NCBI GenBank assembly: GCA_011772645.1
Contig: WVZE01000038.1
Location: forward strand, 1-38,995
From: Candidatus Aenigmatarchaeota archaeon
GTDB taxonomy: Archaea > Aenigmatarchaeota > Aenigmatarchaeia > QMZP01 > QMZT01
DNA length: 38,995 nt
Reading direction: 5' to 3'
A program made the translations under genes and the position numbers. Below, one piece after another: positions 27,213 to 28,505 of this stretch (positions are counted from its first letter, which is position 1; each line of letters starts with the position of its first letter). The notes under the pieces are model-generated. The model made no database searches. It was not told the origin of the DNA and saw nothing but the letters and a program-made list of their open reading frames with translations.

Positions 27213-27581
27213 TCACTTTTTGAAAATCAGCCAGTCTTTCTCTCCTGCCTTCTTGAAACGGAGGATCACGTATTCCCCTTTCAGTTTCTTCCCCTTGAAC
27301 TTCAGAACGATCTTCCAGTCCTTCCTGTCGACAATTTCGAAAGTTCCTTTATCCCAGATCTTCACCTTCCCCGCTCCGTACCCCTCCGGGATCTTCCCCT
27401 CGAATTTCGCATACGAAAGTTCATGATCCTCGACCTGTATCGCAAGCCTCTTGACTTTCGGCTTGGTGGGAGGCTCTTTCGGGATCGCGAAGCTCTTGAG
27501 AACCCCGTCCATCTCCAGGCGGAGATCCCAGTGGAGGTTTCGGGCGTGATGCTCGTGAACGACAAAGATCGGTTTTCCCAT
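27213..27581 (-). CDS. Stand-alone LigD-type 3'-phosphoesterase domain protein
   Basis: MGKPIFVVHEHHARNLHWDLRLEMDGVLKSFAIPKEPPTKPKVKRLAIQVEDHELSYAKFEGKIPEGYGAGKVKIWDKGTFE: classic VxxHxARxLHxDLRLE and EDHxxxYxxFEGxIPxGxYGAG motifs. Confidence 0.92.
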   Translation of the reverse strand: MGKPIFVVHEHHARNLHWDLRLEMDGVLKSFAIPKEPPTKPKVKRLAIQVEDHELSYAKFEGKIPEGYGAGKVKIWDKGTFEIVDRKDWKIVLKFKGKKLKGEYVILRFKKAGEKDWLIFKK

Positions 27582-27635
27582 AAATTAAAATTTATATACC
27601 CAATTTAAATTAAACTTCACATACTGACCGTTCAG

Positions 27636-27796
27636 GGGCCCGTAGCTCAGTGGTAATTTCGTGAGAAGCAGATATAATCTGCTTCAATCGCTGAAGAGTG
27701 CTCGGCTCGCATCCGAGAGGCCTCGGGTTCGAAAATAGAAACCTCCAGCGGGTTTCTATGCATCCAGCAACCAGTTCGAAACTCCCGACGGGTCCA
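27636..27796 (+). tRNA. tRNA-Ala(CGC), apparently with two introns (D-loop about 27656..27695, T-loop about 27734..27782)
   Basis: Acceptor GGGCCCG/CGGGTCC with G3:U70 and A73; TA; D-stem GCTC/GAGT with GG in the D-loop; anticodon arm CTCGG-CTCGCAT-CCGAG (anticodon CGC at 27708-27710); T-stem TCGGG/CCCGA with TTCGA. The D-loop and T-loop each contain an extra segment of about 40-49 nt that forms a 9-bp hairpin. CCA is not encoded. Confidence 0.85.
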
Positions 27797-27797
27797 T

Positions 27798-28505
27798 ATG
27801 AAATTCCTCTACGTAACGGATACGCACGGAACGCGGACGGTATATGAGAAGATGTTCGATCTGGGGAGAGGGAAGGATATCGATTTCCTAGTGTTCGGCG
27901 GGGACATCACTTCCGGAGTGAACCCGAACGGGCAGAAGTTCTTCCTTGAATCCTACCTGGTTCCCAGGCTGAAGGAATTCAGAAAGCATTTCGGTAAGCC
28001 TGTTTTCATCATGATGGGGAACGATGATTTCGAGTCAAACGTACGCATACTCAGAAGGCTGAGCAGGCAAAGAATTATCCGCAAACTTCACGCGAGGTAT
28101 TACAAAATGAACGGTTTTAATATCGCCGGCTACCCTTTCGTCAACCCGACGCCTTTCCTCCTGAAGGACTGGGAGAAGACAGAGGAGGAGATAGGAAAGG
28201 ATCTCGAGACCCTTTCGAAAAACATCAACCCGAAGAAGACGATCTATGTCTTCCACGCGCCTCCGTTCGGGACGAAGCTGGACATGCTCCACAACAGGGA
28301 GCATAAGGGAAGCAGGGCGATCGCGGATTTCATAAAGAGAGAGCAACCCCTTCTTTCCCTCCACGGACACATACACGAATCCCCAGAGGTTTCCGGAGTG
28401 ACCAAACAGAGGATCGGGAAAACATTATGTGTGAATCCCGGGAACGGGAGGATAATCCTGGTGGATACAGAGGGGATGAAGATAAAAGAAATCGGTCAGG
28501 AATAA
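27798..28505 (+). CDS. Calcineurin-like metallophosphoesterase
   Basis: MKFLYVTDTHGTRTVYEKMFDLGRGKDIDFLVFGGDITSG...VFIMMGNDDFES...YVFHAPPFGTKLD...SLHGHIHESP. Confidence 0.9.
   Translation: MKFLYVTDTHGTRTVYEKMFDLGRGKDIDFLVFGGDITSGVNPNGQKFFLESYLVPRLKEFRKHFGKPVFIMMGNDDFESNVRILRRLSRQRIIRKLHARYYKMNGFNIAGYPFVNPTPFLLKDWEKTEEEIGKDLETLSKNINPKKTIYVFHAPPFGTKLDMLHNREHKGSRAIADFIKREQPLLSLHGHIHESPEVSGVTKQRIGKTLCVNPGNGRIILVDTEGMKIKEIGQE

Follow-up and report, generated by a model that had tools for sequence, protein, structure and literature searches.

The genome of a Candidatus Aenigmatarchaeota archaeon (DPANN; 775 kb in 47 contigs, estimated completeness 78%) carries a gene for tRNA-Ala(CGC) at 27636-27796 (+) of the window, i.e., of the whole 38,995-nucleotide stretch of DNA analyzed here. 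We consider it very probable that this gene specifies a precursor with two BHB introns, cut by an epsilon2 endonuclease and joined by RtcB, and that the intron in the T-loop comes from a dispersed family of structured elements. The anatomy of the gene, the pairing at its junctions, the covariation, the spread of the T-loop element and the presence of the enzymes were observed in the sequence. The doubly interrupted tRNA is a known type of gene, and the family of elements, designated R1, is the less expected part.

Gene body and intron junctions

Exon 1 (27636..27654, +) holds the acceptor 5' strand, U8 and A9, the D-stem 5' strand and the D-loop up to position 20. Exon 2 (27695..27733, +) runs from A21 through the D-stem 3' strand, the CGC anticodon arm, the variable region and the T-stem 5' strand to TTCGAA, and exon 3 (27783..27796, +) supplies U60, the T-stem 3' strand, the acceptor 3' strand and the discriminator A73, with CCA not encoded. 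An earlier note had read the sequence and its coordinates exactly from the letters, and all its landmarks are in place: the acceptor GGGCCCG/CGGGTCC with G3:U70, the D-stem GCTC/GAGT, the anticodon arm CTCGG-CTCGCAT-CCGAG and the T-stem TCGGG/CCCGA are complete. A TATA-box-like sequence, TTTATATA (27591..27598, +), lies about 40 nt 5' of the tRNA and is, by its sequence, a putative promoter. A gene for a calcineurin-like metallophosphoesterase (27798..28505, +) starts 2 nt past the tRNA and is a synteny anchor common to two relatives, G001 and G007; the nearest relatives of the metallophosphoesterase are those of Candidatus Aenigmatarchaeota CSMAG_1834, LacPavin_0920_SED3_MAG_50_31 and RS_17_31. 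Divergent from the tRNA, 27213-27581 (-) encodes a small stand-alone LigD 3'-phosphoesterase-domain protein (Pfam LigD_N, 4.2e-38).

Because of the two inserts, the precursor was not called by standard tools: ARAGORN found 0 tRNA in the whole window, and Rfam gave none above the gathering score. When both inserts were removed in silico, the resulting 72-mer was called tRNA-Ala(cgc) by ARAGORN, which recognized neither the unspliced form nor the forms with one insert removed.

The junctions were analyzed by trying every cut position, and each junction gave one BHB solution that leaves the mature tRNA with a loop of 7 nt. Intron 1 (27655..27694, +; 40 nt) lies at D-loop position 20/21. Its outer helix is the D-stem, its central helix is AGTG 27649-27652/CGCT 27689-27692 with one G-U, its bulges are GT^A 27653-27655 and GA^A 27693-27695, and its inner helix is ATT 27656-27658/AAT 27686-27688. 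The D junction is a strict hBHBh', a motif that appeared in just 0.145% of the insert shuffles. Intron 2 (27734..27782, +; 49 nt) lies at T-loop position 59/60. Its outer helix is the T-stem, its central helix is TTCG 27728-27731/CGAA 27777-27780, and its bulges are AA^A 27732-27734 and AC^T 27781-27783; a contiguous inner helix is absent, and the junction is relaxed and BHL-like. The T-type motif, which is the hBHB register alone, appeared in 1.7% of the intron 2 shuffles. The earlier note had estimated inserts of about 40 and 49 nt, which are 40 and 49 nt by the BHB register, and had been unable to fold either junction as a strict hBHBh'. That statement holds for the T junction, which has no inner helix, and fails for the D junction. 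In the same way, its suggestion of a relaxed BHB or an unusual enzyme specificity suits the T-loop intron and not the D-loop intron.

The two perfect 9-bp hairpins that had been noticed are GAAGCAGAT-ATA-ATCTGCTTC (27665..27685, +), inside intron 1, and ATAGAAACC-TCCAGCG-GGTTTCTAT (27735..27759, +), the R1 hairpin in intron 2, whose membership in a dispersed intron family had gone unnoticed. They are unusual in the window: perfect stems of at least 8 bp with a loop of 3-8 nt form seven hairpins in its 39 kb, two of them within the 161 bp of the tRNA. Hairpins of the form GA[AC]GCAG...CTGC[TG]TC are repeated within D- and T-loop introns and also lie immediately 5' of several tRNA genes (window 27665-27685; L004:1467, L010:1469, L015:1394 and L012:1607; L155, upstream of tRNA-Gly). 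The intron 1 hairpin is perhaps a member of a second dispersed repeat family, which we do not claim because the alignment used hand-picked examples only.

Group I introns do exist in archaea (PMC6125680), but there is next to no chance that the inserts are introns of this or another self-splicing class. Over 27500-27900 no Rfam family, and with it no conserved catalytic core of group I, was matched at E <= 10; at 40 and 49 nt the inserts fall far below the length of such introns; and BHB motifs are found at the junctions.

We examined 21 T-loop introns of the window genome and its relatives; in 20 of them, four intron bases pair with the T-loop TTCR exactly at the BHB register, compared with a mean of 0.48/21 and a maximum of 4/21 in 2000 shuffle trials. 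Across the 21 introns, tRNA position 57 and the intron base opposite it change in concert (G-C 10, A-U 9, G-U 1 and A-C 1). This pairing and covariation are the best evidence that the T-loop inserts would stay removable.

It could be argued that the locus is a pseudo-tRNA, a dead tRNA-Ala gene that gathered insertions, since the precursor was missed by both ARAGORN and Rfam and the assembly is incomplete, so that an intact second copy is possible. We consider this highly improbable. Every stem is intact, and the orthologues, whose comparison the earlier note had suggested, carry compensatory changes: in ten of them (introns removed where present) 21/21 stem pairs are formed in every sequence, 8 of the 21 show two-sided changes, and G3:U70 is invariant (10/10). 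Both junctions have BHB pairing, with the covariation at position 57 noted above. Most tRNAs of the genome look alike, and the other tRNA-Ala(CGC) that had been raised as a refutation was not found by the anticodon-arm pattern with <=3 mismatches in the 78% complete genome. GCG is also the commonest Ala codon in the long window ORFs, which are uncurated.

The same gene was then compared among relatives. In G007 the D-loop insert is homologous, with the AGTG/CGCT helix retained and compensatory changes in the hairpin stem, and the T-loop is uninterrupted. In G001 the tRNA-Ala(CGC) has no introns; G003 and G004 have T-loop introns only, at the same position and with sequence unrelated to intron 2; and G014, from another family, has introns in both loops. 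The relatives differ in intron content, both sites being filled in some and empty in others. The D-loop intron is common to the window genome and G007, and the missing T intron of G007 could be a loss, instead of a later gain in the window's lineage.

Splicing machinery and interruption of other tRNA genes

The sole PF01974 protein of the genome has 396 aa, and its residues 10-396 align to the ARMAN-2 epsilon2 EndA (PDB 4FZ2/9W2K; E 2.9e-102). The subunit type, which the earlier note had proposed to check, is by this alignment epsilon2 (ARMAN-2 type): one polypeptide of about 390 aa made of three units, homologous along its length to ARMAN-2 EndA. It keeps the Tyr-His-Lys triad and the Tyr-Lys of the ARMAN-specific loop (ASL), as FRIYF, HSKHV, KKTFIL and QYGVYK (compared with PMC12397907). 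Epsilon2 EndA has been described already (PMC6379350, PMC12397907); the ARMAN-2 enzyme requires the ASL for cutting BHB and BHL substrates, and it cleaves relaxed BHB substrates (PMC12397907). Nearly every genome searched within the order yielded a match of epsilon2 length, and the rest of the class gave short alpha-type matches only. An RtcB ligase is also encoded (3.8e-156).

From these features we infer that tRNA-Ala(CGC) is transcribed and spliced. The precursor transcript would contain both BHB introns; the epsilon2 endonuclease would cut it at the strict D-loop BHB and the relaxed T-loop BHB, and RtcB would ligate the exons into a standard 72-nt tRNA. The cell is probably able to excise both introns. 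The inserts have the attributes of archaeal BHB pre-tRNA introns, namely BHB junctions (strict in D, without the inner helix in T), a canonical 72-nt tRNA-Ala upon excision, and an encoded endonuclease and RNA ligase; together with the stem compensation in orthologues, these attributes support the idea, first put forward in the earlier note, of a non-canonical archaeal tRNA with two introns.

Only nine tRNAs of the genome passed the Rfam tRNA cut-off. Using an intron-tolerant finder written for this analysis, which gave no matches when the same DNA was shuffled four times, we resolved 22 tRNA genes, of which 20 were interrupted and two had three introns. The DNA scanned was a partial, non-random set of stretches chosen by Rfam matches, T-arm patterns and R1 matches. 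Further tRNAs were visible that the finder did not score, such as an uninterrupted Pro-GGG and an interrupted Gln; in total, introns break at least 20 of the roughly 25 tRNA genes resolved. Interruption of both D- and T-loops is also found in Arg-GCG, Pro-TGG and Asp-GTC of the same genome. With epsilon2 EndA and RtcB both encoded and so many tRNA genes interrupted, a doubly interrupted tRNA is nothing out of the ordinary in this genome, and its kind is known. As a warning, standard tRNA finders miss most tRNA genes in such genomes. Introns in the D-loop, anticodon loop and T-loop together were seen in tRNA-Lys(TTT) (L172, G000:C34) and tRNA-Arg(TCT) (L184, G000:C26), and tRNA-Gly(TCC) (L146:1390-1570, G000:C3) has an apparent 17-nt insert in the anticodon stem (~29/30) plus a T-loop R1 intron.

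The introns of Thermoproteales/Crenarchaeota tRNAs resemble those described here in their 20/21 and 59/60 sites, with two or three per tRNA, and in having strict and relaxed BHB motifs, many interrupted tRNAs and similar introns across tRNAs; earlier work already describes both positions, more than one intron per gene, relaxed BHB motifs and transposition of introns (PMC4090602, PMC4033280). However, those lineages have an (alpha beta)2 endonuclease, and the window's genome has epsilon2. ARMAN-1/2 are alike in EndA architecture, triad and ASL Tyr-Lys and in non-canonical, multiple tRNA introns (PMC4033280, PMC6379350, PMC12397907; PDB 4FZ2, 9W2K), but differ in lineage; the comparison covers enzyme and intron pattern. 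The window's genome links heavy tRNA interruption with the epsilon2 enzyme in a lineage other than ARMAN. A search of open-access full texts found no paper devoted to DPANN or Micrarchaeota tRNA introns.

Structure and distribution of R1

R1 opens intron 2, spans 41 nt (27734..27774, +) and consists of a 9-bp stem, the loop UCCAGCG and the tail GCAUCCAGCAACCAG. Further copies in the same genome occupy T-loop introns (Ile-TAT, Gly-TCC, Lys-TTT, Asp-GTC, Arg-TCT), Arg-CCT, where the element is extended, and the anticodon-loop intron of Gly-GCC. A covariance model, built from four copies and roughly calibrated, matched 20 of 160 genomes of the class, which make up the searched phylum set, at E <= 0.001 and 17 at E <= 0.0001. 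R1-bearing tRNAs are numerous and come from at least 12 genomes, with the element at 59/60 and 37/38, and four different tRNA genes of G002 hold nearly identical complete introns. The weak matches L157 and L200, and most of those below ~23 bits, look like chance. The tRNA-Gly(TCC) of L186 (G002:C11) has an anticodon-loop intron of >100 nt with two tandem R1 copies, and a T-loop intron too.

Among 20 distinct R1 sequences from tRNA and rRNA genes, 98.5% of the cells are paired, and the covariation is 0.518 compared with 0.153 when shuffled; copy relatedness inflates this value, and a slid-partner control that keeps the relatedness gave <=0.101. The strongest covariation signal outside the stem is between loop position 11 and tail position 33, which pair as A-U in 9, U-A in 9, G-C in 1 and U-G in 1.

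R1 also occurs outside tRNA introns. One copy in G074 lies within an archaeal 16S rRNA gene (L195:1501-1541, -), where it is probably a BHB intron. Inverted copies end exactly at the start codons of porG (G048), of a NusA-like KH protein and a MacB-like permease (G020), of a Rad50/SMC-like gene (G010) and of an HVO_2753-like zinc-finger gene (G070), and place GGAGG, by sequence a likely ribosome-binding site, ~7 nt ahead of the ATG. These loci are L150 and L167 (G048, tandem copies), L153 and L169 (G020), L156 (G010) and L194 (G070). An inverted R1 is also held by the anticodon-loop intron of a tRNA-Ala(CGC) in G152 (L201:96-135), and we dropped the rule that tRNA introns use one strand and protein leaders the other. 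In the window's own genome, an inverted R1 at L185 overlaps an ORF end. Rfam gave no match for the non-tRNA copies L185 and L188. The R1 core pattern had no exact match in IMG/VR, and viral carriage was rejected.

Origin and spread of R1

There is no settled account of how BHB introns are acquired, and the mechanism of tRNA intron transposition was described in a review as still unknown (PMC4090602). The occurrence of R1 in many tRNAs and 16S rRNA, and inverted in a tRNA and at start codons, suggests a mobile family of BHB introns, resembling the transposed introns of Thermoproteales, in which near-identical introns likewise sit in non-orthologous tRNAs at different positions. A mobile DNA element is the simplest common reading of these homes, and we infer spread by transposition. 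Such a family would insert mostly in tRNA genes, at 59/60 and 37/38, and the 3' end of each R1 intron would pair with the exon, so that the insert could be removed.

On the other hand, tRNA genes may have exchanged R1 introns through gene conversion or recombination, with no transposition of an element. The near-identical introns across several G002 tRNA genes and the flanking sequence that tRNA T-arms have in common would fit this route, which we nevertheless think somewhat unlikely, as R1 is also at 37/38, in 16S rRNA, by protein starts and inverted, and the flanks differ there. It is also conceivable that R1 is primarily a cis-acting RNA (or antisense) with its own function, e.g., translational control of protein genes, with tRNA introns as its secondary hosts or as a source of antisense RNAs. 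The five protein start codons with GGAGG and the conserved, covarying loop and tail sequences speak for such a function. But most copies sit in tRNA introns, and the protein genes, just five such starts, have no obvious regulon; one tRNA intron carries R1 inverted, and orientation is therefore not strictly tied to function. We judge this second alternative quite unlikely.

A further reading goes beyond this, and we hold it to be less likely than not. R1 may be an unrecognised mobile structured nucleic-acid element of ~41 nt with a pseudoknot-like loop-tail pair, which would move as DNA in both orientations, survive in tRNA and rRNA genes via a spliceable BHB and be able to act as a ribosome-binding leader when inverted at gene starts. 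With a recognizable core and many copies, in both orientations and several RNA classes, R1 can be tracked between empty and filled sites, and the tRNA-Ala(CGC) with its R1 copy is a good case for studying the movement of such introns.

Large-scale tRNA intron transposition was reportedly described by Fujishima et al. in 2010, as cited in PMC4033280 and PMC4090602. The present case differs in lineage and in its inverted, rRNA and mRNA-start copies and loop-tail covariation. Compared with Thermoproteales/Crenarchaeota, the shared intron core is here conserved and structured over many genera, 16S rRNA and protein starts, as found by searches within the phylum.

Palindromic elements of the REP/IS200-IS605 type are, like R1, small dispersed hairpins in both orientations, and the genome has a Y1 transposase (Y1_Tnp) gene. 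However, the hairpin beside tnpA, in the one contig-end copy examined, is unrelated to R1; nothing ties the transposase to R1, and the link was rejected. The gene is an IS200/IS605-type fragment at a contig end (L205:1432-1755, -; G000:C4) with a hairpin of its own, CCACCCACTGAAGTGGGTGG.
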